DNA of 64,000 nt. It comes from Chloroflexota bacterium (GTDB taxonomy: Bacteria > Chloroflexota > Anaerolineae > J036 > Brachytrichaceae). The stretch is taken from the NCBI GenBank assembly GCA_021788625.1, contig JAJYKL010000010.1:1-64000 (forward strand). The letters are read 5' to 3'. The notes under the pieces were generated by a model. That model saw only the letters and a program-made list of their open reading frames with translations, was not told where the DNA came from and made no database searches. The translations under genes were made by a program, and so were the position numbers. This document shows, one piece after another, positions 15,997 through 34,796 of the stretch (position 1 is the stretch's first letter; each line of letters starts with the position of its first letter).

Positions 15997-18822
15997 TCAC
16001 GTTGTGGCTGATCGTGGAGTAACTGCGACAGGTTGCTTTGACGGAAGCATCAACCCCTCATCGACATGAGTCGCAAGGTCTTCCATTTCCATGATGGCAC
16101 ACTGCCAAGCGCTCGGATTTACCACTAATTCGCCAAAGTCTATGGGGTTCTCACTTAGGTCCTTCGCCCAGTAGGTCCCGCTACGGGTCATGCAATCGTA
16201 AAAAACAAGACGAGTGGGGCGCTCCCTCGGCGTACCTGCAGACGATTGGATGCGGTAGTAGTCCAATCGTTCAAACTGCATCCACGCGTGGAGGACCTCA
16301 GTCGCCGCTTCCAGGGTTGACAACGCTGTGCCGCTCTGGACCATAAGGCACTTTACGTCCATTTCCCTTCCCAGGTACTCTCGGTTCACGAGGACCCGCT
16401 GGAACTGGCACGATCTTATGAGGGTGTTACCCGTCAACAATACCTTTAGAGACTTCAGGATTTCATCCTGTGTGTTGAACTGCAGGAGTTTTGACAGTTC
16501 GCGGATAATCTGCCGAGTCGATCGGGCGTCGTAGGGGAAGAAAAAACCCACCACAAGCCAGGTCTCCTCGAGGGTTTCCTGCGTCACCCGAAAAGAAGGG
16601 TTTGGTATCAGACTGCGTAACTGGTCACGTACGGCGGAGCGTTCGTTATGCCGCTCCTCATCCTGCGTCACCCCCGCGGCGTACCAGGCGCTCGCCAGTA
16701 AGTATGCGTCGGCGTGGTTGGCCCGGATGATGTCAGCAGCGCTGCGCCTTTGTACTTTATTCAGGCCGTCGAGGTAGCCTTGTTGCGCGGCATCACCCCA
16801 GAAAAAACGCCACATGCGCAGGAAAGATTCCAACGCAAACTCCGGCTCAACCCAGCTTTTCGCGGTGAGGTGCCACAGGATGTGTGAGAAAATGGCGTAG
16901 TTGGTGACGACCACCTCAAATCCCACCAGGTGTATGAAGTCCGCGCTGCTCAAGCCCGAGAGGTAGCGGCGCACGAAGTTCTTGAGCACCCTGCGTGAGC
17001 GCTGCGCGATGGTCAGGTGCTCCTGTTCCTCTTGGCTGCCTTCCTGTTCGGCCTCCTCCTCGCTCTCCGGCTGGTTCTGAACGCGCGGCATATGGCGGCC
17101 GCCCAACACCGTGCTGGCCACGGGCTGCCGCAGGTCCCTGAAGTGATCAGTGATCGCATTGAGAATGATCTGTAGACGTGTGGGAGCCATCCCCGAATAC
17201 CTGCCACGGCCCTGGATGTACTGCTGAATCCGTGGGTGGCGGCGCAACGCCTCGTAATCCACATCGCTGTAATGGATGACGGTGGCGCTGTCTTCCTCGC
17301 CACCGGGTGCGGGAGTTTCAGGTCTGGTCCGCCCCACTATTTGCCAGATGCTTTGTTGGTCCACGACAAGTGCCGCGTCCAATTCGCTCAATAGTGTTTC
17401 CAACTCCTGATCGTTAAGGTCGAGCCGGCCAATGCGCTCGATAGTGTTCGTGTAGCCACCGTCCCGAAGCGCCGCGTCAAGGGCGTCGGTATTACAGGAG
17501 TACACGGGATTCGTCACTTGATCCTGCCCGCCCTCGGTCCAGCACACCGATGTGGGCCACGGCGGTACTTGCGATAACGAGTCCGCTATCTCTGACGTCA
17601 GTTGCACCTGAATGGTGCTCGGCTCGCGTCTCACGACATCCAGGGGGAATGGGCGCGTGCCGACGATGAGCCGTGCGCCCTTTAGATTTGGGAGTATGCC
17701 TTTGAAGTGAAGCGAGAGTGTCGTACCGCTCCATTCGCCACTGGTCAGCCGCCATGAAGGGGTGGGCGTGGGTGGTTGATCATCGGGGGCGTCGTGATAC
17801 GAGAGACTAAGCTCCATAAGGTCCTGCACGGGTATTCCGACGTCCCATCTCTCAAGCAGGTAGTCGAATGTGTTGCGCGGGCCCATCAACAGGTTAGCCA
17901 CCTCCAGGTTACCGACTGGGTCGGCCGTGAGCATGGCTGAGACGGACATATTCGGTGACCCCTGAAGGCAGAGCGCTTGGTCTGCCATTTTGATCAGGTA
18001 GATCTTGGCGTGTACATAGGGGGTGTCCGGGGCGGTGGCAAATGGACGGACTAAACCTCGGCCGCGGAACTGACCCAGTACGCGCTTCAGACTCGCTGGC
18101 TCAACCGAGGTCCGTCCGGGTTGGACCAAGAGGGTGAGCTGCTTTGGGTCAAACGTCGTGATCAGGTGTTGCAGCGCGATGGCTTCCTTATCGTAGAACG
18201 GCGCAGCGATCCAGAGTTCCTCCACACGCTTGCCGCCCACCGCTTGCCGGAGCTGCTCGAGAAAGCTCTGCTGTAGGTTGTGTCGCACTGGGTTCCACAT
18301 ACCGTGTGCGGCCTGATACAGCCACGGCGTTTGCTCCAGCAGGTAGCGGATGCGCTTCGCGGCTGTGGCACCGACGTAGCGCCGCTCCAATGTCCCCTCG
18401 AGTAGCTCACGGACAGATGCGAACGCGGCAAGGTGCTCCCTCACTTTTGATGAGTACTCGTACCGAATGAACACCTCGCCACCCGACGCGTAGCCGTCCA
18501 TGTTTAGGTTACCGCTACCCACCAATAGCCGTCCGACCTCGCCGTTCGCCAGCAGAATGATCTTCGCGTGTGCAGCGTGCTCGGTCATCAGCCCGTCGGC
18601 GACGTAGAGTCGATTGATGAACCGCGCCATACCGCTCTCGGCACATGCTGCAGACTCCTCCAGAAACTGCTGCCAGTCCGCCAAGATGACCTTATTCCGA
18701 CAGCCGGCGTCCAACTGGCCCCATATCGCATTCTCGAAAAACGGGACGTCAACCCCGTACGTAAGGATGATGCAGTGACTCCACTTGCCCAGGAACTCGT
18801 CAGGCAGCTTCAGCGGGTCCAG
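15997..18822 (-). CDS. Phospholipase-D-fold (HKD) protein, probable nuclease
   Basis: This is a large protein (about 941 residues) with two HKD half-sites. The first is HAKIILLANGE..LVGSGNLNMDGY in the N-terminal 80 residues. The second is HAKIYLIKMADQ..LQGSPNMSVSA near residue 280. A long helical C-terminal half follows (about 500-940). PLD-fold proteins of defence loci are usually metal-independent nucleases, and lipid cleavage is the alternative. Coding similarity continues upstream of the first ATG/TTG (LPDEFLGKWSHCIILTYGVD). An aggaga box lies six bases before a CTG at 18820-18822, so I infer a CTG start that overlaps the stop of the preceding gene and makes the pair translationally coupled. 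It is the last gene of the long minus-strand run that begins with brxA. Confidence 0.75.
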   Translation of the reverse strand: MDPLKLPDEFLGKWSHCIILTYGVDVPFFENAIWGQLDAGCRNKVILADWQQFLEESAACAESGMARFINRLYVADGLMTEHAAHAKIILLANGEVGRLLVGSGNLNMDGYASGGEVFIRYEYSSKVREHLAAFASVRELLEGTLERRYVGATAAKRIRYLLEQTPWLYQAAHGMWNPVRHNLQQSFLEQLRQAVGGKRVEELWIAAPFYDKEAIALQHLITTFDPKQLTLLVQPGRTSVEPASLKRVLGQFRGRGLVRPFATAPDTPYVHAKIYLIKMADQALCLQGSPNMSVSAMLTADPVGNLEVANLLMGPRNTFDYLLERWDVGIPVQDLMELSLSYHDAPDDQPPTPTPSWRLTSGEWSGTTLSLHFKGILPNLKGARLIVGTRPFPLDVVRREPSTIQVQLTSEIADSLSQVPPWPTSVCWTEGGQDQVTNPVYSCNTDALDAALRDGGYTNTIERIGRLDLNDQELETLLSELDAALVVDQQSIWQIVGRTRPETPAPGGEEDSATVIHYSDVDYEALRRHPRIQQYIQGRGRYSGMAPTRLQIILNAITDHFRDLRQPVASTVLGGRHMPRVQNQPESEEEAEQEGSQEEQEHLTIAQRSRRVLKNFVRRYLSGLSSADFIHLVGFEVVVTNYAIFSHILWHLTAKSWVEPEFALESFLRMWRFFWGDAAQQGYLDGLNKVQRRSAADIIRANHADAYLLASAWYAAGVTQDEERHNERSAVRDQLRSLIPNPSFRVTQETLEETWLVVGFFFPYDARSTRQIIRELSKLLQFNTQDEILKSLKVLLTGNTLIRSCQFQRVLVNREYLGREMDVKCLMVQSGTALSTLEAATEVLHAWMQFERLDYYRIQSSAGTPRERPTRLVFYDCMTRSGTYWAKDLSENPIDFGELVVNPSAWQCAIMEMEDLATHVDEGLMLPSKQPVAVTPRSATT

Positions 18823-20483
18823 GCGAGGTCTCCTGTGTTGAGCATCTCTCGGCCGTCAGCGGTCAGGGGGTGCGCGGGCTCCAGCATGTTGCCGCACAGG
18901 CCCAGGTCGAGCAGCGTCGTGCGCAGGGCGTTGTACCGGGCGTCGTTAAAACCAAGCACATTGAGCAGGCTGTAGAAACGCAGCCCTCGCGATTCGCGCC
19001 GGAAGCGGAAGGTGTTGTCGGGAAGCTTGTTCGTCGCCACGAGCTGGTGCTGCAGTATGACGTATTCCCCATATAACCACCGAGCAACCTCGCGGATGGT
19101 GACGGGGCCGCTTGCCAGCCTGCTTTCTAGAAGACGAACGAAGTTGTCAATACTGAGCCGGCCGTCCGATCCCATCTGGGCGATCCGCCATTCGGGCCTC
19201 TGATGACAGTCCGGGTGACGGAATCGCAGATAAATGAGTGCCAGCACGACCAGCATCCCCGCCACCATGAACGCCGGATTGGCCCTGTTACCGAGGGCCA
19301 GCCGGTACAAGCGGTGCTCGTGGACGCGAGAGGCCAACGTGCAGTCTGTGTCGAAACTCTCCTCGTTACCGTGGCACGCTTCCACCAGCCACGCGAGCAG
19401 CGACCGGAATGACGAGTCTGCGGTTAACCGCGGGCGCTTAACGCTTAGCGTGGTGGCCAAGCTGTCGAAGGTCAGGGTCTGATCGAGATGCTGCCAGACG
19501 GCATCGATGGGAACGGGGCTCACGTTACCCCCAGATGCGATGCCCCAGACACACAGGTAAGTCCACATAGCATTCAGTGCGAATGCGTAATACTCACGCG
19601 CCTGGTACAGGCGCCACATGCGAAACTCGTCACTGACCTCGGCCTTGGGCTGGTACGCCAAACCCCCTTCAGCGGCGCGAAAGTAGAGCAACTGGCGGAA
19701 CGTGTCTTCGTCAACCGCGTTACCCTCGGTTTGATCCGCAACGTCGAGCAACAGGCGGAGGGTTGCTCGACGTGATTTCGCTTCAGCCGGAGGCCCACAG
19801 TGTATGAATACGTCCAACAGGGGTGCCCGGTCGGCAGCAGTCGGCTTTTTGAGCTGGCATAGGCACGCACGGCTTATATAGTCTTCTATGACGTTGGCCG
19901 GAACATCCGGCGCATCGCAGGTAAAGTAATTACGGTAGTAGGCGGTATCTCGGATGGCGGAGCGAAACGCCTCCGCCACACGTTTGCCCAACTCGCTGGG
20001 GACGTCCAGCGGCAAAGGATACCCAGGGCCGCCGGGCAGAATGAGGCCCATCTCGGCCATGACTGATCGGTAGTACAGGCCATAGCCCCCGAGCGGGCTG
20101 TCGATGTAGTGCGTCGCCGTGCTGTAGCGCTCAGGTTTTTCGGCTGCTAGCGCCTGGGTGATACGTGCGCCCACGACATTCTGCATCAGGCCGTGTTCTG
20201 GGTGGTTACAGAGGTGCGCTCCGATGGAGAAAACGAATTCGCGCGGCCTGTAGAAGTTGACCCAATTCGCGTGAGTTCGGGGAACCTCACGCCGCCAGAA
20301 CTCGTCCAGCAGGAAAACGTAAAAGCTGTGGTAACGGGGATGGAAGGTGAGAACGTTGATGCCTGGGGACAAGTAGGGTAAAATCTGGTCCGATGACACG
20401 CTCCCCAATCCAAGATGGTCACGCCCAACTTTCCCAGGATACATTCGAGCTGTCCAACTTGGCAAGGGCGTTATTGTTGCCAT
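18810..20483 (-). CDS. Uncharacterised 557-residue partner of the PLD protein
   Basis: I do not recognise a named domain with confidence. The N-terminus (GRDHLGLGSVSSDQILPYLS, then HPRYHSFYVFLLDEFW) has the look of the DUF6361-like proteins often paired with helicases or PLD nucleases in defence islands, but that is a recollection rather than a search result. A hydrophobic stretch near residue 405 (FMVAGMLVVLALIYLRF) may be buried or membrane-associated. A winged-helix-like segment follows near the C-terminus. It starts 25 bp after the reverse transcriptase stop, with ggaag before the ATG. Its 3' end overlaps the start of the PLD gene. This spacing suggests one operon with the retron and a protein complex with the PLD protein. 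Confidence 0.7.
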   Translation of the reverse strand: MATITPLPSWTARMYPGKVGRDHLGLGSVSSDQILPYLSPGINVLTFHPRYHSFYVFLLDEFWRREVPRTHANWVNFYRPREFVFSIGAHLCNHPEHGLMQNVVGARITQALAAEKPERYSTATHYIDSPLGGYGLYYRSVMAEMGLILPGGPGYPLPLDVPSELGKRVAEAFRSAIRDTAYYRNYFTCDAPDVPANVIEDYISRACLCQLKKPTAADRAPLLDVFIHCGPPAEAKSRRATLRLLLDVADQTEGNAVDEDTFRQLLYFRAAEGGLAYQPKAEVSDEFRMWRLYQAREYYAFALNAMWTYLCVWGIASGGNVSPVPIDAVWQHLDQTLTFDSLATTLSVKRPRLTADSSFRSLLAWLVEACHGNEESFDTDCTLASRVHEHRLYRLALGNRANPAFMVAGMLVVLALIYLRFRHPDCHQRPEWRIAQMGSDGRLSIDNFVRLLESRLASGPVTIREVARWLYGEYVILQHQLVATNKLPDNTFRFRRESRGLRFYSLLNVLGFNDARYNALRTTLLDLGLCGNMLEPAHPLTADGREMLNTGDLAWTR

Positions 20484-20508
20484 CGTGGTACTTCCATGCT
20501 GTGGAACA

Positions 20509-21729
20509 CTACACTGTAGTCACTTCCCACACGACATAATCGAGTTGATTAAGCAGCTTTCTACCTAGTTGCGGATTTATACCGAACACATAATACGCGT
20601 GCCCATATAGATGCTCACGAAAGTGAGGGACGTCATTTCGATTCTGGCTAAGTGGGCCGTACTCAACACAATTATGAATGACAGCTCGAAGCTTCCTGTA
20701 GTATTCACGTGGGATGTTGGGCTTGTCATTTACTACAAGCCCGGTCACCAGTTTAGACTGTCCGGCATAAAAGTGTTTAGTTTTGCGATGAGCTAGATGA
20801 AACCCTTCTTCATTGAGTATGCGCTCTAGCGTATGAACGAGACCTTTGGGAATCCTCTGCCCGGAGAATGTAATGTCATCAGCATAACGTGTGTAACACA
20901 GGCGCATCACTCTAGCCAAACCAGTCAACCTAGTATCAAGCTTTCGACAAGCTATGTTGGACAACGCCGGACTGGTTGGCGCCCCCTGGGGTAAGACACC
21001 ATTATGGGAACTGAGTTTGGCTAATAGTATCGCTACTGGGTACAGATAGCCCAGATCCAAGTAAATGCCCACTATACGGGGAAAGGTAATGGTTGGGAAG
21101 AAATCCTCAAGATCTACTTTTAGGATCTCCCGTGCACTGACGTGGGGAGTTGCGTTATCTACAATTGAGACTGCACGGCGGTATGCCATTGCTGACGGTG
21201 ATAAGCGTACATCCGTCAGTATGTTATCTAGTATCCAACGTTGCACCTTGAGAAGTGGATAGCACGGCGCACTGATCTTCCTTACCCCTCCATTTCTTTT
21301 TGGCACTTCAAAGTCGGTGTAACATGGGTATTTCGTGGTCGCAAGGTAATGTAGATTGCGATGTGATAGACCAACCTCATTTGCCAAGTCTTCTGTTGCT
21401 ACTAGTGGTTTTGCCCCGTTATTGAGAAGATTGAAGCAATACCAGAGCATCAGGCTGACAAGGCTTACATGCCTATCCCCCAGATTCTGCACACTAGATA
21501 CAAGCTTGCGATACTGCTCCGCCGTTTTATTATCGCGAGTGCACAGGTTTTGGAGAGCTTCTTCCGGTGTGGGTTTTATTTGTTCTAAACTGATAAGCAG
21601 GCCTCTATTTAGGCAGAATCGTATATATGTGAGGCAAAGCTCTGTAATAAGCGGGTTGACGCCGGCATCGAAATTCAGGGTTTTAAATTCACCCAAAATG
21701 GTGCGCTTTTCAGCCTTGCTGTAAACCAT
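20509..21729 (-). CDS. Retron-type reverse transcriptase
   Basis: This 406-residue RT has the diagnostic retron signatures: NATPH (192-196, the NAxxH motif), VDLEDFF (205-211), LPQGAPTSP (246-254), the catalytic RYADD (281-285) and VTGLVVN (328-334, the VTG motif). Retron RTs make msDNA from a dedicated RNA lying just upstream, and such a structured region is present at 21741-21950. About 115 residues precede the first conserved RT block, which is a longer N-terminus than in classical short retron RTs. The region is visibly more AT-rich than the genes on either side, consistent with separate acquisition. The expected role is phage defence together with a linked effector. Confidence 0.92.
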   Translation of the reverse strand: MVYSKAEKRTILGEFKTLNFDAGVNPLITELCLTYIRFCLNRGLLISLEQIKPTPEEALQNLCTRDNKTAEQYRKLVSSVQNLGDRHVSLVSLMLWYCFNLLNNGAKPLVATEDLANEVGLSHRNLHYLATTKYPCYTDFEVPKRNGGVRKISAPCYPLLKVQRWILDNILTDVRLSPSAMAYRRAVSIVDNATPHVSAREILKVDLEDFFPTITFPRIVGIYLDLGYLYPVAILLAKLSSHNGVLPQGAPTSPALSNIACRKLDTRLTGLARVMRLCYTRYADDITFSGQRIPKGLVHTLERILNEEGFHLAHRKTKHFYAGQSKLVTGLVVNDKPNIPREYYRKLRAVIHNCVEYGPLSQNRNDVPHFREHLYGHAYYVFGINPQLGRKLLNQLDYVVWEVTTV

Positions 21730-21740
21730 ATGTCATGCAG

Positions 21741-21950
21741 ATTTAGCCCGGCTTCATCTATCTGGGCATCCGAGAGGTGTTGACTTCAACAGAGGTGCCT
21801 TATTGGCTCGAAGACGATAACAGCGATCTTTTCATTCGTACATCCTTCGAGCCAATCAAGTCAACACTCACTACTAGCAAGTCAGTCAGCGTAGCGTAAC
21901 ACCACGCCCTGTACCGTCGTACATGACTCGTTAGAATCAGCCGGGCTTAG
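21741..21950 (-). ncRNA. Predicted retron msr-msd RNA
   Basis: This region lies between the effector stop and the RT start. Terminal repeats pair over nine perfect bases: 21939-21947 (a1) with 21745-21753 (a2). a1 overlaps the last codons and the stop of the effector gene. The 3' half (msd) folds into a long hairpin: an outer 10-bp stem (21858-21867 with 21777-21786), an asymmetric bulge, an inner 12-bp perfect stem (21845-21856 with 21802-21813) and a 31-base loop. The 5' half has short hairpins (gtac-gacg-gtac, gcgt-ggtgtt-acgc). This matches the a1-msr-msd-a2 order of known retrons. The branching guanosine cannot be assigned by eye. Confidence 0.82.
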
Positions 21951-24012
21951 TCCGATTATATAGGTTTTTAAACGATGAGACCACAACCTTATGTAACATG
22001 CTTATGAACTCGTCATCTACACCAACGGACAGATCAAAAGTTCCCTTCGCAAGGTATTTATGATTTGGATAGGGTAACATCGGCCACCTCTTTCTGGTAG
22101 CGCTATCTCTCGGCATAACTTGTTCCCTCTTTGGGTCAACCCGGCCGCCACAATTCGGGCAATACCTGAGATGTCTATCGAAGTAAGCGTTGCAATCTTC
22201 GCAGTAGATTGTTTTGCCTTCGTATCGATAACTTAAACTTACAAGCTTTGAGGCTAAACCCCCATTAGTTTTACTACTCATGTCAAGTGCGAGTTTTGCC
22301 ATGGACCATTTATCGCCGCCAAGGGCGATTGTCTGAGATATCTCATCCAGTAGACCCGTTAAGAAGTGTATGTCACTCCGGCTCAATTCTCCTACAAACG
22401 GCTCGACACGCGAACTTATATGCACTTCCTCATACGCGCCTGTGCCGCCGGACTCTACTAGTTGATGACTGAGCATTTGCTCAAAGGTGTTCAGAGGAAG
22501 CTCGGTACCCTGGAGCAACGTCTGAATAGCACTACTACTTACATGTCCTAAAGCGCGGATAAGCTTTAATGTTATTTGCCCTTGGAAAGGAAGCTGCTGC
22601 CAGGTGAGTGTGGGTATGTGCGGCGCTTCTGGTACTCTACCAAGCTTAATCCCACGAAGAGTCAAGCGATAGGCGTCAACGATATCCTGAAAAGTCAACC
22701 CCACCTTCGACTGCAGTATGTCCACACTGGAGGTGTCATTAAAAACCTGGTTTAACATTATCTTCAGCTCAACGGGTTCATCTCTGAGATCATCTGGCAG
22801 TTTAACTACAGTGGGTGTTAAAGCAAAGCATCTGGATAGTGCTTCAGTAAAATCCCTTTCTTCATTTGGCTCGCATACTGCCCACAAGTGCGACTGAGGG
22901 TACGCAACACATAGTTGGCTTAGTAAAGATATACGGCTCGATGTGGGTTCGTTCGCATCAATGATAAGAAGTTCGGTATCTGTGGCACTGTATTCCCGCT
23001 CCAGTGCTTTGCGTGTGTAATCACGGAACTCTTCGACATCCGGTTCTAAGGGTAAACGGCTTATCACTATGGGGGCATATAGCTTGGTTATTGCCTGCCG
23101 TTTCCATACGAGATAGTTGGTAATGGATGTGCGCCCACTTCCCTTGACGCCGACGACTAATATAGGTTTTAAATACCACTCGGACTCGGTACAAAGGTGA
23201 TCTGCTTGCTCCACTCCCTGATTTATATACAAATGATCTTTGAAGTCATCTTCAGTATGTAGCGCGATGGTTGACAGCTTGGCCTGCCTTATTGTCTTTT
23301 CCCAGTAGATCAAGGTTTTACGCACATCCCATCGATTAGCAATGTCACCCAGTCTACGTGTGACTCTCAAAAGTCGCTTTTCTTCCCTCCTCTTTAATTC
23401 CGCCTCTGATCTCATGTTGTATACGTCGTCATAACGAAGATCTTCCTTTTTATCTTCACGCCGGATCCATGATTGGCTAATATCAACCTCGTTCCCTCTC
23501 ACCTGATTGCCGGAACTGTCAAACGGAATACTTGCACGAGCTACATATGGAGCATCGGACGCGACTATTTCCAGGATACCCACACGTCTACCACTAATCG
23601 CAGGACAAACCCAAGTCGAATATCTAACAACCGGAGGGCGCTTACTCATACCTGCAATGTAATGCCTTATTACACTGTAGAAAACCTCCTGGTTGTACTT
23701 GTCGATCGTTATTTGATCGCTCCCGACCACAGGGGCTTTAAATTTCTTGTCGTCTCTCTTATTCACTGGTATTGGGGAGATATAGCTATCAATGCCTTTG
23801 ACGAACCGAGTCTTGTCATGAACCCCCAAAATGAGATATCCTGTAGATTCGCCATCCCTGAAGGCTGCGTTTGCTATTGCGATGACATCCTTTACAAGTT
23901 CAGCTAAGTGATGCCGCTGATCTACTGCATACAATTCTTCCTTAAAATCGATAATATCGGCTTCAGTCGTCCTGGTAATCAACTCACCAACTCGCTCCGG
24001 CGTTAGTACCAT
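21937..24012 (-). CDS. AlbA/Schlafen-type ATPase with zinc ribbon, candidate retron effector
   Basis: This 691-residue protein opens with an AlbA_2/Schlafen-like putative nucleic-acid-binding domain (about 1-180: IIDFKEELYAV, AIANAAF, GYLILGVHDK). A P-loop ATPase follows, with Walker A GVKGSGRTS (288-296) and Walker B LLIIDANE (348-355). A C-terminal zinc ribbon has cysteines at about 604, 607, 618 and 621 (CEDC..CPNC). The order resembles signal-transducing STAND-like defence proteins, with nucleic-acid sensing at one end. It sits directly upstream of the retron RNA, its stop codon lies inside the a1 repeat, and its composition is as AT-rich as the RT gene, so it is the natural effector candidate. 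It starts 67 bp after brxL on the same strand. Confidence 0.8.
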   Translation of the reverse strand: MVLTPERVGELITRTTEADIIDFKEELYAVDQRHHLAELVKDVIAIANAAFRDGESTGYLILGVHDKTRFVKGIDSYISPIPVNKRDDKKFKAPVVGSDQITIDKYNQEVFYSVIRHYIAGMSKRPPVVRYSTWVCPAISGRRVGILEIVASDAPYVARASIPFDSSGNQVRGNEVDISQSWIRREDKKEDLRYDDVYNMRSEAELKRREEKRLLRVTRRLGDIANRWDVRKTLIYWEKTIRQAKLSTIALHTEDDFKDHLYINQGVEQADHLCTESEWYLKPILVVGVKGSGRTSITNYLVWKRQAITKLYAPIVISRLPLEPDVEEFRDYTRKALEREYSATDTELLIIDANEPTSSRISLLSQLCVAYPQSHLWAVCEPNEERDFTEALSRCFALTPTVVKLPDDLRDEPVELKIMLNQVFNDTSSVDILQSKVGLTFQDIVDAYRLTLRGIKLGRVPEAPHIPTLTWQQLPFQGQITLKLIRALGHVSSSAIQTLLQGTELPLNTFEQMLSHQLVESGGTGAYEEVHISSRVEPFVGELSRSDIHFLTGLLDEISQTIALGGDKWSMAKLALDMSSKTNGGLASKLVSLSYRYEGKTIYCEDCNAYFDRHLRYCPNCGGRVDPKREQVMPRDSATRKRWPMLPYPNHKYLAKGTFDLSVGVDDEFISMLHKVVVSSFKNLYNRTKPG

Positions 24013-24079: not shown

Positions 24080-26119
24080 CTAATTCAGCCCCAGCGCCTT
24101 CATCGCCGCGGTCAGCGGGTCGCCGTAGAAGATCGGGTCCACGCGCTCAACGATGTCCGCCGAGACGTCCAGGAAGTGTCGCTTGTTCAGCGTGGGGATG
24201 AGCGCCCGGCGGGCGCCGTTGTCCATCGCCGCCTGCAGCGGCTCCGCCAGCGAGCGCACCGTCTTGATGTTCCCCTGGATGCTCAGGTCGCCGAGGAGGA
24301 CGAACGCCGGCAGGGCCGGCTGCCGCTTGATCGCCGAGTACATGGCCACGATGAAGGCGATGCCCGCCTCGCAAGACACGCGGTTGGTCAGCAGGTCGAT
24401 GGCCTCAACGTGGAAGTCCGTCGTGTCGAGCGTCTGGGCGATGCCCATCTCCACCTTGTGGCCCTGCAGGTAGGCGAACGCCCTCTGGACCGACTCCCGC
24501 ATGTCGCCCTCGATGCCTCCCTCGATCCTGAGCTTGCCGGTGCCAGCCGCCATGCCGACCTCGAGCCGGTACAGGCCGGTCTTACCCTGGTCGTCCACGG
24601 AGGCCGCGTAGACGGAACCCGGCGCCAGCGGGTCGGTGGAGATGAGGTTGCGCCCACCTTCCTCGGGCACGCCGACGAAGCGCTCTTCGCGTGTGTCCTT
24701 GTCGATGTACGAGAACGACGTCTGGTGGTACTCGAACGAGCCCATTTTCTTGAGCTGCTCCTTCACCCGCCGTCGGCCCTCCAACGCCAGCTCGACCAGT
24801 TCCGCCAGTTCATCACGCTCCACCTCGCCGTCGGGGTAGATCAGCTTCACCAGGCCGGACACCGTCTTGCGCACCGCCTTGGTGTCGCGCGCATTGAGGT
24901 GGCTGCCGGGCTGGAAGTGCCGGTCCAGCATCTCGGTGTAGTTGTGCCGGCGCAGTTCGTGTAGCGCCTCCGCCAGGTAGTCCACAATGAACCCGTAGCG
25001 GTCCGTGAAGTACTCGTTGCGCATCTTGGGGGCATCCCAGCCCGGGACGTAGTAGTGGATGCGGTCCAGGAAAGCCAGGTCTTCGCGGATGATGTCGGGC
25101 AGGGGCGTGAACAGGTGCGAGGAGCGCACCATCACCTCGACCGGCTGGTTGGTGTTGCCGAACATGGCGAGCGAGGCCATGCCGGACAGGGCGTCTCGGC
25201 CGCGCGCGAACGTGCCCGACTCGCAGTACGTCTTCAGGGTGGTCACGACCTCCCTCGGCATCTTTTGCAGGTCCGCCACCTCGTCGAAGGCGAGCGCGTC
25301 CCAGATGCCGACCAGCCCGATGCGGCCGGTGGCCATGTTGTAGAAGAGGTTGGCCACGGTGGTGGGGCCGGTGAGCAGCAGGGCGTAGGGGCTGAGTTCC
25401 TGAAAACCGTAGGACTTGCCGGTGCCGCGCGGCCCCAACTCGATCAGGTTGTAGTTGCGCTCACACAGCGGGATCAGCCGCACCAGGTACAGCAGCTTCA
25501 AGCGCCGGTCGAAGTGGGACGGCTCCAGCCCGATGCTGCGCACCAGCAGGTCGATCCACTCGTCGGCGGTGAAGCGCCGGCGTCCCTCACGGTACTCCTC
25601 CAGGTCGAAGGCGGCGACCTGGATGGGCTTGAGTTCCTCGATCCAGAACGGGCTGCGGCGGCCCGTGGCCTCCTCGTCGTAGCGGTGCACCAGGTTCACC
25701 TGCGCCCACAGGCCGCCCGTGAGCAGCCGCTCGTAGTCGCGGACGTAGTGCTCGGGCACGTGGACGTAGCGGTGGCCGAAGTGGTGCAGCTCGGCCCAGT
25801 ACTTGTCGTCCTCCGAGAGGTAGTTCACCTTCACCTTGTCGATGAAGGTGTGGGCGCCCTTCTCGCGCACCTGTGACTGTGCCTTGGTCGCCTCGTTCGG
25901 ACCGACGAAGTTCTCCGCCAGCGTGTCATTGACCACGCGCAGCCCCGCCTCGATCGTCATCGGGTCGTCGCTGGCGCAGTACTTCCCCAGCAGGTACTCC
26001 AGCACGAACACGGGCACGTTGGCGCCCACCTTCACCTTGCGTACCAGGTCCTTGCGCACCACCCGGCCGGCGAAGACGTCGTTGGCCTTGGCATCCAGAT
26101 CAACCGCAATGTCTGTCAT
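24080..26119 (-). CDS. brxL: BREX AAA+/Lon-like protein BrxL
   Basis: This 679-residue protein has the BrxL layout. An N-terminal domain (DVFAGRVVRKDLV, VPVFVLEYLLGKY) is followed by an AAA+ core with Walker A LGPRGTGKSY and an arginine-rich second half (FGNTNQPVEV, DRIHYYVPGW). A Lon-related C-terminal domain comes last (GDLSIQGNIKTVRSLAEPL). The start at 26119 (MTDIAVDLD) is chosen for the acaggt box upstream. BrxL is a DNA-binding AAA+ ring needed for restriction in type 1 BREX. The positions of the Lon catalytic dyad read CEAG instead of PSAG and LAEPL instead of LKEKL, so peptidase activity is unlikely. It is the last gene of the BREX block. Confidence 0.92.
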   Translation of the reverse strand: MTDIAVDLDAKANDVFAGRVVRKDLVRKVKVGANVPVFVLEYLLGKYCASDDPMTIEAGLRVVNDTLAENFVGPNEATKAQSQVREKGAHTFIDKVKVNYLSEDDKYWAELHHFGHRYVHVPEHYVRDYERLLTGGLWAQVNLVHRYDEEATGRRSPFWIEELKPIQVAAFDLEEYREGRRRFTADEWIDLLVRSIGLEPSHFDRRLKLLYLVRLIPLCERNYNLIELGPRGTGKSYGFQELSPYALLLTGPTTVANLFYNMATGRIGLVGIWDALAFDEVADLQKMPREVVTTLKTYCESGTFARGRDALSGMASLAMFGNTNQPVEVMVRSSHLFTPLPDIIREDLAFLDRIHYYVPGWDAPKMRNEYFTDRYGFIVDYLAEALHELRRHNYTEMLDRHFQPGSHLNARDTKAVRKTVSGLVKLIYPDGEVERDELAELVELALEGRRRVKEQLKKMGSFEYHQTSFSYIDKDTREERFVGVPEEGGRNLISTDPLAPGSVYAASVDDQGKTGLYRLEVGMAAGTGKLRIEGGIEGDMRESVQRAFAYLQGHKVEMGIAQTLDTTDFHVEAIDLLTNRVSCEAGIAFIVAMYSAIKRQPALPAFVLLGDLSIQGNIKTVRSLAEPLQAAMDNGARRALIPTLNKRHFLDVSADIVERVDPIFYGDPLTAAMKALGLN

Positions 26120-26176
26120 ATGCGAACACCTGTTTGGATTATGGCTTATAGCTGATGGCAAATGGCCCGGACCCCC

Positions 26177-28753
26177 CTAGAGCCCGAGCAGAGCGACCTC
26201 CACCTTGTCGATGCGGCCCAACTCAACCCCGGTCTGGGCATCGATCAGCACCAGTGTCACCGTCTTCCCTGCTATCTTGCCTGGGAGACGCAGGGTCACG
26301 TAGTTGGGCTCAATGGCGGCGGGGTCGTCGGCGGTGGGCCGAAGCTCGATCTCCTGGGTGAGCCGGTCCAGCCCATATGTCGCGTCCATGGCTTCGGAGA
26401 CCACGTCCCGGTTCTGCCGCAGCTCCACACGGACGCGCTGCGATGCCGGGGGGAACATCCCCGTCCAGCGGCCTTCCACCCGCACGGTGTAGACGCTGGT
26501 GGTGAGCTTGCGCGTGGTCGGCACGAGGCGGAATTCCGCGGTGGATGGTGTCACCGGCGCAGTCACCGACAGGGTGAGCACGGGGATGGCGAGTTCCTGC
26601 GGCGACGTGCCGCCGTGGAAGTAGGCGCGCGCGCCGCCCTGCATGCGAAACGCGCCGAACCCGACGGGCGAGGCCAGCTCCAGGTCGGTGCCGAGGCCGA
26701 GTTGGTCCAGGCGCAGCCGCACGATGCTGTCGGACTGTGCGCCCCCGCGGCCGACCCACACCCGGCGCTGCAGGTAAACCGTGTCGCCGCCGGGCGGGTC
26801 GAGTTTCATTGCTTCGTCCAGTTCCTCGCCGAACAGGTGGCCGTGGTCGGAGGTGTAGACGATTTTCTTACAGCCGTAGCCCTGCAGCACGCGCGCCAGC
26901 CGCGCCAGGTCGCGCAGGGTGCTCTCCATGGCATCGCGGGCCGAGCGGATGTTATCGCCCTCGGCCAACTGGTCCAACTCCTGGGAGGTGACCAGGATGA
27001 CCTGCGCCGCCTTCAGCTCCTTGTCCAGGTCGGTGCCCGGCTTGGGGAGCATCTTCTCCAGCGTCGTGACCGCCACGGGCACGCCGGCGCGCTGCTGAAA
27101 ATACGCCACGCGGGCTTTGCGGTCCTTCAGCAAGACGCCGCCAACCCGCACGCCCAAACCCCCGTCGCCGGTGACCTCCAGGGCGACGTCCGCGCCGTCC
27201 GCGCCCGGCATCAGTGCCGCCATGCCGACCGGCGTGGTTCCGGGCAGTGTCCCCAGTGCGACGCCCAGGCCGGCGTCGTAGTCGTCCTGCAGGCTGTGGT
27301 GCAGTTCGCGCCCCATTTCGTAGCGCATGGCGTCGACCAGCACGTAAGCCGTCTTACCTTGCTGGACAGCGGGCTTCACCCTGCCGGCGTAGACGTCGCG
27401 CTGGCGCATCACGCCAGTTACGTTGAAGCGGGTGCCGGCCAGCGCACGGCTGAATGCCTCCGCCACCGCGCCGCCGACCCGCATGTACTGGTGGCGCGCC
27501 TGGGCGAGGAGCGCCGTCAGCTCCGGCGCCGAGGCCGTGACCGGGTCCAGGCGTTGCCAGTCGCGCTCCAGGTGGCGGTGGAGCGTGTCGAGTTCACACC
27601 AGGCCTCGTCGCCCTCCGTGTAACGGCGCAACAGGTCCGCCGGTTGGGACGGCGCGCCCTTCAGCTCCTGCTCGACGCGACGGGCGTGGCGCAGCAGCCT
27701 GGCCGCCGTGCACGCCAACTGCCAGCGGTCCGCCACCTCGACCCGATACATGGGCCAGAAGCCTTTGCGGCGCCGCTCCGCGAACGCGATGAGCGTCTCA
27801 TCCGGCTGCTGGGCCAGCATGCGCTCCACGTGGCCCTGAACAACGCGCTCGACCGCCACGAACGTGTCGCTGTCGCGGACCTGCTCGAAGGCGAAAAGCA
27901 CACCGCCAACGTGCAGCGCGCCCTCGGTCTTGCTGGCCGCTTGGGCGTACGCGTCGGCGCTGGTGCGCTGTTCGCGCCAGCCGACGGCAAGCTTCACGCA
28001 TGCATCGCGCTGCACCTCGGCATCCGGCAGCGGCACGCCCGACAGGGCTGGCGGGAGGGGCGGGTGCAGGCTGCTGATGAACTCCACCGTGAGTACGTGC
28101 TGGGCGAGCCTGGCCCGCAACGCCTCGCACGACGGCTCCGCCGGTAAAGGCAGGCCGCAATACCTGTTCAGCTCGCCGGCCAGTTCAGCGCTGGCATTGC
28201 GCGCGCTGATCTTGGCGTCCAGCGCGGGGTTGGTCAGGAACGCCAGCGCCACGTCGTGCGGCGCGCTGGTGCCGAAAATGGCCGTGAGGACGACGGAGCC
28301 GCCCTCGCGCTCGTCGATATGGTCCAGATCGGCCAGGGACAGCTTTCGGTCGTCCACCTGCTTGGCAAGGTCGTTAATGCGTTCCGTGGGCAGCTTATCC
28401 TTGAGCGCGCGCTTGGCAATGCTAGAAAGGCGGGTGTTGAGGATTGAAGCGCCGGCGCCGGGCTCCAGGATGGTGGCGGTGGCCGTCAGTTCGACCAGAG
28501 CGTGGTGCGTGTCCTCGCGCGCCAGCGGCACGTAGACGACCAGCTTCGGCGGGTTCTCGCCGTTCAGCAACGGGTCTACGTCATGCCGTAACTTGAAGAA
28601 ACTCCCCTCGTAGCAGGCGAGGGTGGCATCCGAGAGGCTGAGTGTCGTGACGAACTCGGCATACTGCCGGTCGGGATCGAACCACACGACCATGCTGTGC
28701 TGCTTGACCTGCTCCGCGATGAGGTTGCGCAGGTATTCGGCGACGATCCCCAT
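26177..28753 (-). CDS. pglZ: BREX alkaline-phosphatase-superfamily protein PglZ
   Basis: This 858-residue PglZ carries the alkaline-phosphatase-fold segments AYVLVDAMRYEMGRELHHSL, ILVTSQELDQLAEGDN and KKIVYTSDHGHLFGEE, which hold the acidic and histidine metal ligands. The N-terminal part has the WFDPDRQYAEFV opening seen in PglZ proteins. PglZ is required in every BREX type, and its phosphatase- or nuclease-like role remains unsettled. The start codon overlaps the stop of the preceding pglX2 C-terminal ORF as TAATG, so translation is coupled. The gene is full length. Confidence 0.92.
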   Translation of the reverse strand: MGIVAEYLRNLIAEQVKQHSMVVWFDPDRQYAEFVTTLSLSDATLACYEGSFFKLRHDVDPLLNGENPPKLVVYVPLAREDTHHALVELTATATILEPGAGASILNTRLSSIAKRALKDKLPTERINDLAKQVDDRKLSLADLDHIDEREGGSVVLTAIFGTSAPHDVALAFLTNPALDAKISARNASAELAGELNRYCGLPLPAEPSCEALRARLAQHVLTVEFISSLHPPLPPALSGVPLPDAEVQRDACVKLAVGWREQRTSADAYAQAASKTEGALHVGGVLFAFEQVRDSDTFVAVERVVQGHVERMLAQQPDETLIAFAERRRKGFWPMYRVEVADRWQLACTAARLLRHARRVEQELKGAPSQPADLLRRYTEGDEAWCELDTLHRHLERDWQRLDPVTASAPELTALLAQARHQYMRVGGAVAEAFSRALAGTRFNVTGVMRQRDVYAGRVKPAVQQGKTAYVLVDAMRYEMGRELHHSLQDDYDAGLGVALGTLPGTTPVGMAALMPGADGADVALEVTGDGGLGVRVGGVLLKDRKARVAYFQQRAGVPVAVTTLEKMLPKPGTDLDKELKAAQVILVTSQELDQLAEGDNIRSARDAMESTLRDLARLARVLQGYGCKKIVYTSDHGHLFGEELDEAMKLDPPGGDTVYLQRRVWVGRGGAQSDSIVRLRLDQLGLGTDLELASPVGFGAFRMQGGARAYFHGGTSPQELAIPVLTLSVTAPVTPSTAEFRLVPTTRKLTTSVYTVRVEGRWTGMFPPASQRVRVELRQNRDVVSEAMDATYGLDRLTQEIELRPTADDPAAIEPNYVTLRLPGKIAGKTVTLVLIDAQTGVELGRIDKVEVALLGL

Positions 28754-30825
28754 TATTGGACCAGTCCTTTCTCGCGCATCTGCCTGCCGATGCTAGACCA
28801 CTCATATTTGCCGGCACGCAACTCATCCCAATAGTGTCGGGCCTCCCTCCACAGCACCAGTTCGTGCAGCGGGGCGATGGTGAGCACGACGCCATCGTTC
28901 AGGTCGGGCACCAGGTACAGCTTGGCCGCGCGTTCCAGCCGCTCGCAGAATTCTTGCACGTCGCCGACAACAGCCTGCTGCCGCTCCATCTCGCGGTCCA
29001 GTGCGCGCTGTTCCTTGGGTGTAGCTGCAGCACTGCGTTTGCTCTGCATCTCGTCCAGTTTAGATTGTTCACGCCGCAGCTTCGGTTCGGCGTAGTTCAC
29101 GAGCGCCTTGAAGAGCGTGTCCTTATCCAGCCGGTGGTAGTACAGCCAGATAGCGTAATGCTTCCTGGGCGATTGCAGCAGCCAATAGATGGGCGCTTTA
29201 CGGCGGCTCTTGCTGTAGCGCTTGATGTGTGCCTGCCAAAACGCGCCTTTGCGCATATAGTCACGCAATTCGCTGATCCCCAAGGCGGCGCAAACATCAC
29301 GCTCCCATATTTCGGCGCGAGGTCCGAAGATGATGTCCAGTGCGCCGCGTGCGCGGCGCACGATATCGTCAGGGTGATCAGGGTCATCTACCAGGATGCC
29401 GTCGGCATCGATGCGCAAGGGGTAGCCCGCCGGAGCGTTCAATAAGGGTAAGCCATCGCCGCCAGTGAGCATTCCTGGCGAACAGGCCGGCAGCGGGTCG
29501 AACGGATCCCACAAATTTGGCATTGGCCTTCTATCATTGGCGTAGCGAATGTCCCAGCGGCCAAAGGCACAGCCGACCAAATATGAAATAAGTCCATCAG
29601 CATGTGCTGTGAGATCGAGTTCTAGCGAGGCTTCTTCCGATTCTTCTTCATCAACATAAACATTGCTGGAATCAATTGAGGTTGTATTGGTGGCATCGAC
29701 ATTAGCCTTCTCACCGTTATTGCTGGTATTCACCAATTTGAAGGTCGCCTTCTCCTCGGGCAAGCGGATGTTGTCTTTGGTCAAGCCGTACAGTTCGAGG
29801 GCAATGCGGTCGATCTCGCACTGTCTAGCGTCCAGTTGGGTCCTTTCCTGTGCTACATACTGTGCCCAGGCTTCGGCGTGTGTAGATAGCGTACTGCCAG
29901 TGACTTGTAGGATGGCTGGGAGGTGAAAGACGTGGCTAGTTTCGTTGGCACGATCGAGATTACGCTTTATATTAAAACTCCGCTCGGCTTCAAGCTTAAT
30001 GCCTGACCCATTTATGTCAGACGGTAGTGGGATTTTTTGGACAAGACCTACCTCATACTGAACACCCCCTACCTTGCCAGCAAACATGCCCACCAAGAAA
30101 TCGAACACCCGAGAGTTCAGAATAGCAAGAAGCGACGGTAAATCGGAGGTTCTGTCTGTGGTAGCAAGCTTACCAGCAACGCTGAAGATACATCCAGTAG
30201 GTACGGCTTGCGCTGAGAGCCGTATGCCACGCAGTGGCCATGTTAGCCCTGGGCGAAAGAAGTACCTTTTCTCGGTATCCTTGAGCATCCAGACGTTTGA
30301 TCTAGTCTTTCCTTGTCCGTTAAGATTGCCTTTGATTGAAGCACCGTCGTTCTCCCAATCCACAACGGCGGAGATATCAGAGTAAAAAGGTGAATAGGAA
30401 CCACCCTTGGCGAAGATCACCCACTTCGCAGAGCCTGATAACTTCTGGATACACAATTCCCTATAGCTCTTGACAGAGTTAATATTAGCAACGTCGGTCT
30501 GAACATACATGAGAGTCTTGGGTCGAACTTCCCACCATACTCTTAAGAATCTAAAGTCATCCGCAGAAGCCAGCCCTTGTTTCACCGAGCGACCATCTGA
30601 TTCAAAAGGCGGCATATCAACAAACAGACGTCGCAGATCATCGTTTACCCAATACGCAATTGGGCTACCTGGTACTTGCCGGAACACCTGCGGATCGACG
30701 CGGAACACAAAGGGGCTGGCGGGACTGGTATTGGCGTCGATAATGACTTGTGCTAGAGCAGCAGCCTTGTCATCTGCGTGTAGTAGTCGCAGGTAAATCG
30801 CATGGTTACCCATTCGGACCACCAT
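28753..30825 (-). CDS. pglX: Second PglX, C-terminal (specificity) part as a separate ORF
   Basis: This 690-residue protein corresponds to the C-terminal half of PglX. It shares with PglX1 the blocks PGSPIAYWVNDDLRRLF, RYIR/RFLR-CWWE/VWWE, APIYWLLQSPRKHY and the closing DLNDGVVLTIAPL..YEWSSIGRQMRE. That half holds target-recognition and BREX-specific regions. It is in the same frame as the methyltransferase ORF upstream. The two are separated by 18 codons, two of which are stops, besides the first ORF's own stop. No ribosome-binding site precedes the ATG at 30825, so either translation is coupled or the gene is broken. Roughly 29.6-30.8 kb is AT-richer than its surroundings, as expected of an exchangeable recognition domain. 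Confidence 0.8.
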   Translation of the reverse strand: MVVRMGNHAIYLRLLHADDKAAALAQVIIDANTSPASPFVFRVDPQVFRQVPGSPIAYWVNDDLRRLFVDMPPFESDGRSVKQGLASADDFRFLRVWWEVRPKTLMYVQTDVANINSVKSYRELCIQKLSGSAKWVIFAKGGSYSPFYSDISAVVDWENDGASIKGNLNGQGKTRSNVWMLKDTEKRYFFRPGLTWPLRGIRLSAQAVPTGCIFSVAGKLATTDRTSDLPSLLAILNSRVFDFLVGMFAGKVGGVQYEVGLVQKIPLPSDINGSGIKLEAERSFNIKRNLDRANETSHVFHLPAILQVTGSTLSTHAEAWAQYVAQERTQLDARQCEIDRIALELYGLTKDNIRLPEEKATFKLVNTSNNGEKANVDATNTTSIDSSNVYVDEEESEEASLELDLTAHADGLISYLVGCAFGRWDIRYANDRRPMPNLWDPFDPLPACSPGMLTGGDGLPLLNAPAGYPLRIDADGILVDDPDHPDDIVRRARGALDIIFGPRAEIWERDVCAALGISELRDYMRKGAFWQAHIKRYSKSRRKAPIYWLLQSPRKHYAIWLYYHRLDKDTLFKALVNYAEPKLRREQSKLDEMQSKRSAAATPKEQRALDREMERQQAVVGDVQEFCERLERAAKLYLVPDLNDGVVLTIAPLHELVLWREARHYWDELRAGKYEWSSIGRQMREKGLVQ

Positions 30826-30827
30826 GC

Positions 30828-30844
30828 TTAACTAGTCGAGTTAA
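30828..30844. repeat. Small palindrome in the pglX2 gap
   Basis: ttaact (30828-30833) pairs with 30839-30844 across five bases, right inside the gap between the two pglX2 ORFs. It supplies two of the in-frame stop codons on the minus strand. It could be an insertion or excision footprint, or a hairpin that affects reinitiation. Confidence 0.5.
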
Positions 30845-30879
30845 TCCAAATGTGGAATGACAATAGGCTTCCGCACCGT

Positions 30880-33279
30880 TCATGCGATTTTCTCCAGGCA
30901 ATATGCTGCCGTTTCCACCATTGCTGTATCTAGCACACCGTAGCCCAGGTCAGCCATAACGGTAAGTCGCGCCTCCCTGAGTAGGATCTCTTCTCGCCAC
31001 TTCTGGAAGCTGGTCAAGAAGAACCCCGTGCGACTGGTGATGGCACCCAGCATGCCGCCGACGCGCAGCAAGTTCAGCCCGCGCTCCACAAAAGCTGCAT
31101 ACAGGTCGTTTTTGGTGCGGGGGTAGGCATCCACGATGTACTCCTCGGAGGGCCTGCTAGCCGCGCCAAAGGGCGGATTCATCAGCACGACGTCATACGA
31201 TTGCCGGCATAAGTCGATAAAGTCAAAACCGCGTTCGGTGTCACGGGCCACCAACCCGCGTTGATACCTGGCGCCGTTGCCTTTGTGCTTGGCATAATCC
31301 CTCAGCGCTGCCAACACCCGATCTTCTGCGCCGTCGAAGAACCGCTCGTTGGTGATGCCGCTCAGGTCAAGTTCAGGTTGTGCGTACTTCACCTTGGGCT
31401 CCGCAAACACCAGCGGGAGCCCAAGCTGCTCCGGCGTGGGCTCGCGCAGCCAGCGCTCTTTGGCTTCCTGGATGGGTCCACGCAGTGTTTCCTCAATTCT
31501 GAGCAGCGTGCCGGCTTCACCGGCCAGCGCCATCTGCGCGAATACGTCACGGGTCAGCGCGTGGATGGCCGGTAGCTCGTGGGCCATCGCTTCGTCCAAC
31601 ATGGCGACCTCGCCCGGCATCGGTTCGGCACACGCAATATGCATGTGCTCGACGACCGGGCGGTCAGACGCCTTTAACCCTTGCTCCTGGTAATCACGCT
31701 GGGTGCGCAGCCACAATGCCAGCGAAGCGATCTGCGTCGCACGCAGGTCGATGTCGATACCGTGCAGGTTGTGGCGCAGGATCAATTCCGGTATCGCGCG
31801 GCGTAGGTGGTCGACGGTCGGGTAGTCATCGCGCAGGGTGTGGCCGGTCGCCTGGCTTTTGGGCATGGATGCACGCATCTCCCAGGCCTCCAGGTAGATG
31901 GCGATGAGCAGTTCGAAACAGTACAACAGGAAATGACCACTGCCACAGGCCGGATCGAGTATCTTGATGTCGCGCGGGTCCTTGATCGGCCGTGGGCGAA
32001 CGTAGACGGGCTGACCCAACTGCGCGGCCTGGTTCGTTTCATCGTTCTCCCGTTGCAGCGTATTGCGCCAGGCGCGATAGAGCGACCGAATTGCCTCGGC
32101 GTCTTCATCGGATATCTCCGTGGCGAAGTGGTGCTGGCGGCGCTGCTCGAAGAAGAGGCACAGCCATAACTCAATCGAGTTGCCCTGCCATACGCCAGAG
32201 CGTGCATGCTCTTCGCGGCGGGCATTGGCTAGCGTGCTGACGATCTCAAATGGCTTGCGCTCATCCCCGGCGCTCAGCCCATGTAATAGGGCTGGGTTGT
32301 AGCCATCTAGCGCGAGGCCAACCTGCATGATCTGCTCGATGGGAAGGTCGTCGGGCAGCGCGCGCCAGCCATCCTCGAAGATGAGGTCGTGGGCCTTGTA
32401 GTCGAAGGTGTAGCCGTCAAACCCGCTCGCGGGCAGGAAGATCTCCAGCGGCCGGTGAACCAGGTAAGGGCACGTCGCCGGCAGTGACGTCTTCCCGTTC
32501 GTCATCTCGAACCATATTCGCCCCAGTGTGTTCTCGACCAGGAACTGCACCACGTAGCGGGGCGTGTAAAACTGGTTGCGGAACGCCAGTTCGTAGCCGT
32601 TGCGCGGCGCCGCGCTCTCTTTGCGTGCCTGGTCGCGCAGCTCCTTGGGCGTAAAGTACTGGTAGATCCAGCCGATCGTTTCGTCCTCGGACCACACGTC
32701 TTTCAGCGCCTCGCCATTTAACTCGTCGAGCACCTGATCGAGCACCCGCTGCGGCGGGTAAAGGGCGTTCGCCGGGTCGTCGGCGGCGAACAGCAGGCGC
32801 ATGGCCCCCTGCTGCACTCCCGGCAGCGTGGCACCTTGCCATATCAGGAAATGGCGATAGGCCACGTCCTGCCGGCCGGTTGACCATAAGGATGCGTCCT
32901 CGGGGTGGTCGGCCAGGTAGAATTTGAAACCGTTCGAACTCAAGCCGCGACTCACCGCCTCGCGGATGAGCTTGCGCTGCTCCATCAGCTTGAAAGCGGC
33001 CAGCCGGTTGAGGTGGGTGAAGGCCACCTCGCGCACGAGCTGCGCCACCGCATCACCGGCCGGGAATCCGGCAGCCCGGATGTGTTCCAAATGCGCCAGG
33101 AGCTGCTCGCGATGCGCGTGCTCTTCAGGCGTGAGCGCGCCCAGCTTGTCGATGCCTTCCACCGTCCCGTCGTGCCCGACGCCAAACTTGCCCTGCAAGG
33201 TGTCGGCTATGGACTCTTCGAGCAGCTTGCGGCAGCGCGTAACGGCGAGGCGGAGCGTATTGCGGAGGGGCTTATCCAT
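30880..33279 (-). CDS. pglX: Second PglX, N-terminal adenine methyltransferase part
   Basis: About 800 residues make up a PglX N-terminal region and N6-adenine methyltransferase domain: KILDPACGSGHFLLY (motif I, near 445) and YDVVLMNPPFGAA (motif IV as NPPF, near 698). The sequence ends at ETAAYCLEKIA, exactly where PglX1 continues into its recognition half. The ATG at 33279 is preferred over a TTG nine bases earlier. In BREX, PglX methylates the host recognition site to mark self DNA. The sequence is clearly diverged from PglX1 (NPPF versus NPPY, different spacing), so this is a paralogue with its own likely specificity rather than a recent copy. Both halves would be needed for activity. Confidence 0.85.
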   Translation of the reverse strand: MDKPLRNTLRLAVTRCRKLLEESIADTLQGKFGVGHDGTVEGIDKLGALTPEEHAHREQLLAHLEHIRAAGFPAGDAVAQLVREVAFTHLNRLAAFKLMEQRKLIREAVSRGLSSNGFKFYLADHPEDASLWSTGRQDVAYRHFLIWQGATLPGVQQGAMRLLFAADDPANALYPPQRVLDQVLDELNGEALKDVWSEDETIGWIYQYFTPKELRDQARKESAAPRNGYELAFRNQFYTPRYVVQFLVENTLGRIWFEMTNGKTSLPATCPYLVHRPLEIFLPASGFDGYTFDYKAHDLIFEDGWRALPDDLPIEQIMQVGLALDGYNPALLHGLSAGDERKPFEIVSTLANARREEHARSGVWQGNSIELWLCLFFEQRRQHHFATEISDEDAEAIRSLYRAWRNTLQRENDETNQAAQLGQPVYVRPRPIKDPRDIKILDPACGSGHFLLYCFELLIAIYLEAWEMRASMPKSQATGHTLRDDYPTVDHLRRAIPELILRHNLHGIDIDLRATQIASLALWLRTQRDYQEQGLKASDRPVVEHMHIACAEPMPGEVAMLDEAMAHELPAIHALTRDVFAQMALAGEAGTLLRIEETLRGPIQEAKERWLREPTPEQLGLPLVFAEPKVKYAQPELDLSGITNERFFDGAEDRVLAALRDYAKHKGNGARYQRGLVARDTERGFDFIDLCRQSYDVVLMNPPFGAASRPSEEYIVDAYPRTKNDLYAAFVERGLNLLRVGGMLGAITSRTGFFLTSFQKWREEILLREARLTVMADLGYGVLDTAMVETAAYCLEKIA

Positions 33280-33973
33280 GTGCTTCAAGGGTGCGCCGGC
33301 CGGGTGCCGGCAGTTTGCCCGTCACACCAGGTACCGGCACGACTGGCAGCGCCAGGTACCTAAACTCTCCGTTGGACACCGACTGCTCGTGTGAATAAGG
33401 TTTCCAATTCACCTGATAAGTGCCGTGGAGTGAGAGCGGTCGCTCACGACTGCGCATGGTGCCAGGCGAAGCACCCGACCCCCAGGCCAGTTCGCCTTGT
33501 AGCGTACAGCCCTCTGCCAGCCGGAAAGCCGAATCCACAGTGTGTCCGCCGGGACGTGGCCGCCAGTACTGGGCTTCATTCGTCAGCATAATGGCCCAGC
33601 CGTTGCACTGAGGGTTGGCGGTCGTTATCAGTTCGAGCCGTTCAATGTCCTGGATAAAGTCATAACGGCCGATATCCTGTACGCTGTGGTTCCGCAGGTG
33701 GAACCGTTCCTCCCGGATTTGCGCGTCGAGTAGCGCCGTCTTGTACTTCAACTCGATCGCCAGCGGCTGTGCTTCGATCACGACCCAGACGTCGAGGTGC
33801 AGTACACTGGATTCGACGGTAATTGGCAGTTCCAGTCGCACCTGTGCGCCAAGCCACTGTTGGTACAGTGCCCAGGCAAATGCGTGCTGAAAGTCGGCCT
33901 CGGAGTGGAATACAGGTCGCACCTCGCTCAGTGCTCTCATGAATCGGTAGATATCGATGTCAAGCTTCATCAT
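33272..33973 (-). CDS. PD-(D/E)XK nuclease-like BREX-embedded protein
   Basis: This 233-residue protein has the core of a PD-(D/E)XK nuclease near its N-terminus: Glu25 in SEADFQHAF, Asp61 in LHLDVWVV and Glu74-x-Lys76 in AIELKYK. The spacing fits the restriction-endonuclease-like fold. Its start overlaps the end of the HEPN gene by 14 bases, and its end overlaps the pglX2 methyltransferase ORF, so all are co-translated. Being wedged between a HEPN gene and a methyltransferase suggests that it cleaves DNA lacking the PglX2 mark, or acts as a back-up effector. That function is inferred. It is not one of the six standard type 1 BREX proteins. Confidence 0.7.
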   Translation of the reverse strand: MMKLDIDIYRFMRALSEVRPVFHSEADFQHAFAWALYQQWLGAQVRLELPITVESSVLHLDVWVVIEAQPLAIELKYKTALLDAQIREERFHLRNHSVQDIGRYDFIQDIERLELITTANPQCNGWAIMLTNEAQYWRPRPGGHTVDSAFRLAEGCTLQGELAWGSGASPGTMRSRERPLSLHGTYQVNWKPYSHEQSVSNGEFRYLALPVVPVPGVTGKLPAPGRRTLEAHG

Positions 33974-34793: not shown

Positions 34794-34796
34794 GGT

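Follow-up and report, generated by a model that had tools for sequence, protein, structure and literature searches.

Azaca, said to have been described by Millman et al. in 2022, reportedly consists of ZacA, ZacB and ZacC; PADLOC holds models PDLC03828-03830 for it, and no mechanistic paper on ZacA, ZacB or DUF6361 was found in literature searches. TDP1, a DNA-repair enzyme, and the BfiI/NgoAVII enzymes carry the same type of PLD active site as ZacB-like proteins and work through a covalent phosphohistidine, without a metal. Other PLD nucleases occur in DISARM (DrmC) and Dpd (DpdK), and the available part of one BREX study (PMC12839542) describes fusions of BrxL with HKD nucleases that function in some BREX systems. 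The window analyzed here (64,000 nt of the Chloroflexota contig JAJYKL010000010.1) contains a gene for a 557-aa protein followed by a gene for a PLD protein (Table 1), which, as judged from profile comparisons, are distantly homologous to ZacA and ZacB, respectively. Together, the two genes are probably a mobile module in their own right that acts against phages (or plasmids) and is related to the ZacA-ZacB part of Azaca, without its helicase. The pair is apparently uncatalogued: the Pfam, NCBIfam, and PADLOC (2023) libraries either overlook it or recognize it only through distant models.

Table 1. Coordinates of the two-gene module, its catalytic motifs, and the genes upstream of it (positions in the window).
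Feature	Position	Strand	Remark
ZacB-like PLD protein, ~938-941 aa	18822..15997	-	probable CTG start at 18822 or 18813
Second catalytic half of PLD, H268xK270...G285S286xN288...N302xE304	17902..18012	-	
First catalytic half of PLD, H82xK84...S100xN102...E113	18475..18570	-	residue 1 = CTG 18813
CTGA start/stop overlap coupling the 557 and PLD genes	18810..18813	-	ATGA or GTGA in homologues
ZacA-like 557-aa protein (557 family)	20483..18810	-	all-helical; no PDB match
Intergenic gap, RT stop to 557 start, 25 nt	20484..20508	-	no terminator-like site
Retron RT	20509..21729	-	nearest PADLOC models III-A and XIII; outside the module
Retron ncRNA region	21730..21936	-	nested inverted repeats at ~21777-21869; outside the module
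Retron effector candidate	21937..24012	-	SLFN AlbA_2 domain (Schlafen-type), weak C-terminal zinc-ribbon match; outside the module
brxL, last BREX core gene	24080..26161	-	pair directly behind brxL in locus L032
Remaining BREX operon	26177..43865	-	pglZ, split pglX, HEPN gene and 233-aa gene, brxC, second pglX, brxB, brxA

The 557 gene begins exactly 25 nt after the RT stop, as the first-pass annotation had reported. Its description of effector, RNA, RT, 557, and PLD as one uninterrupted same-strand unit was true and understated, as the run continues upstream of the retron as far as 43865 and takes in an entire BREX operon; strand and spacing therefore link the pair to BREX just as much as to the retron. 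A short same-strand gap is accordingly to be treated with caution and is not evidence for retron membership. A terminator in the gap had been named as a possible argument against a single operon, and this argument falls away with the lack of any terminator-like minus-strand site within 20484-20508.

The overlap of the PLD gene with the 557 gene, also part of the earlier reading, holds if translation starts at a CTG and gives way to a gap with a TTG start. The PLD reading frame stays open across the 557 stop codon and down to 15997, and an ORF restricted to ATG/GTG/TTG-type codons has its first start only at TTG 18714 (905 aa), which would lose conserved residues including an LTYGVD...FFE stretch shared among relatives, where E27 is present in 19 of 20 members and replaced by D in the remaining one. 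In homologues, the PLD start and the 557 stop share an NTGA (GTGA or ATGA), the window counterpart of which is the CTGA at 18813-18810, while a second in-frame CTG lies at 18822, 7 nt behind an AGGAG. The start in the window is therefore probably CTG, an unusual start codon, with a predicted product of 938 or 941 aa, leaving the TTG ORF about 33 aa short; such a start may entail poor PLD expression in this genome. Right behind the PLD gene, a short plus-strand ORF (window 15786-16022, TLVLDNLSAHK...) merely looks like an IS630-type transposase fragment and had no Pfam match.

The PLD identity of the second protein was confirmed by a PADLOC match to ZacB (5.7e-8), the full set of catalytic residues, and Foldseek matches to TDP1 (best) and R.NgoAVII, the latter with low TM-scores for both and from a modest structure model (mean pLDDT 70.7, pTM 0.44); its sequence profile also reaches TDP1, weakly. 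Both HxK...N motifs characteristic of the PLD nuclease superfamily are present, and the catalytic residues are essentially constant from Chloroflexota to haloarchaea: H, K, N, and E of the first half were invariant in all 20 divergent and all 11 close members, and H, K, N302, and E of the second half in 20/20, with N288 in 19/20. The label HKD nuclease needs correcting, as the D is missing from the motif, which reads HxK...(S)xN...E like that of TDP1 and BfiI/NgoAVII. Judging from these conserved residues and from TDP1 and BfiI/NgoAVII, the protein would be expected to cut DNA. It shares with TDP1 and R.NgoAVII/BfiI the HxK...N (and E) active site and the PLD fold, whereas the window chain is much larger, has additional domains in its middle and at its C-terminus, and comes with a partner protein of its own.

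Among other defense systems with PLD nucleases, DISARM DrmC and Dpd DpdK are matched weakly by many members of the PLD family in PADLOC; in contrast to both systems, the window pair includes a separate partner protein and no DrmA/DrmB-type helicase pair or dpd cluster was recognized beside it, none of its BREX and retron neighbors scoring as the DrmA helicase or DrmB/DUF1998. The PADLOC candidate PDC-M27 is similar in one component, as PDC-M27B matched 14 of the 20 PLDs (best 7.7e-12), whereas PDC-M27A matched 0/20 members of the 557 family; PDC-M27A also gave no match in this genome, nor did its control.

Comparison with Azaca was made against bona fide ZacA(DUF6361)-ZacB(PLD)-ZacC(helicase) loci recovered from the same class as a yardstick. 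Neither window protein matched Pfam or NCBIfam. ZacB matched all 20 divergent PLD members, and the profile-profile alignment of PLD with ZacB (E 7e-15) covered the catalytic core with both halves. ZacA matched 13 of 20 members of the 557 family (best 7e-6) and the window protein itself at E 0.032, without a DUF6361 hit, while the profile-profile alignment (E 7e-7) spanned 88 N-terminal columns, corresponding to one domain. The N-terminus of the 557 protein carries the motif GRDHLGLGSV...PGIN...T...RY, common to ZacA/DUF6361; in ZacA the signature reads RDELGxGSV...PGT...T...RY. Also shared are the order of a ZacA-like before a ZacB-like gene, their close packing or overlap, and the tandem-PLD architecture of the ZacB-like protein. 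In contrast to Azaca, ZacC was absent next to the window pair and from all 36 loci with a 557 relative (cut-off 1e-10), with one marginal 42-residue match elsewhere in this genome; the proteins also differ in size (~500-560 aa for the 557 family vs. ~400 for ZacA, and ~790-940 for most PLD members vs. ~620 for ZacB), and the alignable parts are the core domains only. As ZacC is missing, the pair was filed not as Azaca but as a homologous two-gene relative. The structure model of the 557 protein was confident (pLDDT 87) and all-helical, and a Foldseek search against the PDB returned nothing under E 0.8. A winged-helix likeness (DR2539 repressor, probability 0.16) was too weak and was set aside. 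The absence of a recognized enzyme motif is the one feature suggesting that the 557 protein may be a sensor or regulator.

Relatives of the 557 protein were gathered from complete genome sets covering the class and the phylum, from plasmids, and from named genome contigs. A single-sequence search of the genome contigs yielded zero relatives and an alignment-based query 14 loci, and no relatives were found in viral contigs and phage records. The resulting 36 neighborhoods cover bacteria and archaea, chromosomes and plasmids, with approximately half of the loci plasmid-borne. A PLD gene adjoins the 557-like gene on the same strand in 34/34 neighborhoods reaching that position (in the other two the contig ends before it), the two genes usually overlap, and their pairwise distances co-diverge (r = 0.93; 0/2000 permutations). 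A putative nuclease and a partner with no PDB fold match are spread together over bacteria and archaea. In one Sphingopyxis plasmid (L024, 9968-13818) the order is reversed, with PLD first and the 557-like gene, annotated as a septum formation inhibitor-activating ATPase, second. A retron-type RT was found in none of the 36 neighborhoods (656,707 bases) using the window RT and a small RT profile as queries, and the same query finds retron-type RTs elsewhere in the class. A conserved association with retron RT and ncRNA was not observed, and the wide occurrence of the pair without a retron RT indicates its independence, its link to the retron being only positional. Conservation of the neighborhood had been proposed at first pass as the means of deciding whether the pair is a separate two-gene defense system of a partner and a PLD nuclease, and it is this option that the survey supports.

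Genes near the pair include BREX, Hma, type I RM, type III RM with a UvrD helicase, Zorya, and Qat. A leave-one-out analysis, in which a locus counted if a defense gene was recognized by a query from another locus, found defense genes in 10/36 loci compared to 0/20 control stretches (p = 0.0095), where the controls were a small set of 20-kb stretches from four Chloroflexota genomes and exclusively chromosomal while about half of the pair loci are plasmid-borne. Neighborhood and homology together point to a putative defense function. Several loci, for example L015, L022, and L027, had no helicase or other defense gene recognized nearby, such that the pair can probably act alone.

The retron itself looks foreign and appears to have been acquired separately and inserted between brxL and the pair. 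The GC content is 46% for the effector and RT compared to 65% for brxL and 59% for the pair, with breaks that coincide with gene borders; GC3 is 0.46 for the retron, 0.71 for the pair, and 0.92 for brxL; and the codon-usage distance is 0.58 between retron and pair vs. 0.25 between BREX and pair. Within the class, relatives of the retron effector were limited to weak, partial matches, with no full-length relative in 249 genomes and none on plasmids. Inverted repeats typical of a retron ncRNA (GTGTTGACTT...AAGTCAACAC and TTGGCTCGAAG...CTTCGAGCCAA) lie upstream of the RT gene, and Rfam gave zero matches across window 15000-31000, this region included. Most simply, the pair would already have been part of the BREX operon when the retron entered the space between it and brxL; the opposite order of arrival is less simple but conceivable.

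This arrangement has counterparts in two other Chloroflexota loci, both without a retron: L032, where the pair follows brxL after 231 nt, and L029, with the order pglZ-brxL-two ORFs-pair. The two overlapping ORFs of L029 (8088-9919; 266 and 428 aa) had no Pfam, PADLOC, or NCBIfam match and occupy the position of the window retron, and the space between brxL and the pair is possibly an accessory slot. Further along the window operon, two genes between brxC and pglX (33272-34793) encode a 277-aa RiboL-PSP HEPN protein and an overlapping 233-aa protein of no assigned family, likely a HEPN-type auxiliary module within BREX. The operon also holds two PglX copies (28753-33288 and 38578-42465), one split into ORFs of 802 and 690 aa and the other intact (1295 aa) with a lower GC3 (0.58).

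The other option raised at first pass was recruitment of the pair by the retron as a second effector arm. In this case the RT-ncRNA complex would govern the PLD protein as it does the AlbA-type effector. The shared strand, the 25-nt gap, and the lack of a terminator-like site between RT and 557 would fit it, but it is largely refuted and very improbable: no retron RT lies near the 36 relatives, L029 and L032 have the pair downstream of brxL but lack a retron, GC and codon usage change abruptly and exactly at the RT/557 border, and an effector candidate and an ncRNA region are already present in the retron itself. A better, though still unlikely, candidate is a BREX accessory nuclease of this lineage, acting as an auxiliary effector behind brxL on BREX-recognized DNA. 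The same-strand position downstream of brxL in the window, L029, and L032 and a codon usage closer to BREX than that of the retron speak for it, as does the likeness to the BrxL-HKD effectors, in which the brxL end of the operon likewise supplies a PLD-type nuclease (PMC12839542). However, in the window the two genes form a unit of their own downstream of brxL, whose product is an ordinary BrxL with a C-terminus resembling Lon, the available part of that study describes BrxL-HKD and helicase-HKD fusions without mention of a 557-PLD pair, BREX genes (brxL or others) stand beside the pair only in the window, L029, and L032 while most relatives have none nearby, and the three BREX-linked 557 genes form no supported clade in the tree of 557 proteins. 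The pair is not the regular constituent of BREX loci that a core component would be.

A non-defensive role, as a maintenance or DNA-processing unit of plasmids or other mobile elements with a TDP1-like phosphodiesterase, would explain why the pair is often plasmid-borne, sometimes next to transfer or partition genes, and why the best structural match is a DNA-repair enzyme. Against this improbable alternative stand the enrichment of restriction and other defense genes in the neighborhoods and the fact that the defense-labeled relatives are ZacA and ZacB. A variant of the defense reading is also unlikely: a portable cassette that dropped or never had ZacC would use the motor or signal of an adjacent DNA-translocating or DNA-recognizing system (BREX, Hma, type I/III RM, or Zorya) as the trigger that permits cleavage by the PLD protein. 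Under this reading, an accessory slot would follow brxL that is empty in L032, filled by ORFs in L029, and filled by the retron in the window.

For the preferred independent ZacA-ZacB-like module, the ZacB-like protein would be a metal-independent PLD phosphodiesterase, by analogy with the chemistry of TDP1 and BfiI/NgoAVII, whose two HxK...N...E halves build one active site within a single chain and which may cleave invading or damaged DNA. The helical, translationally coupled ZacA-like protein would keep it inactive and, upon a foreign-DNA signal, free or direct it. Where the ZacC helicase accompanies ZacA-ZacB in Azaca, the window module would work with no dedicated helicase. It lies at the 3' end of the BREX operon, and as a separately acquired retron separates it from brxL, joint transcription of module and retron would be a matter of position. 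The existence of a ZacA/ZacB pair without a helicase means that Azaca can be dissected experimentally, raising the question of what ZacC contributes. Beyond the other end of the BREX operon and divergent from brxA, a UvrD-type helicase extends over two ORFs (44007-45770 and 45804-46607) and is followed by a PD-(D/E)XK nuclease (window 44007-47451 in total).
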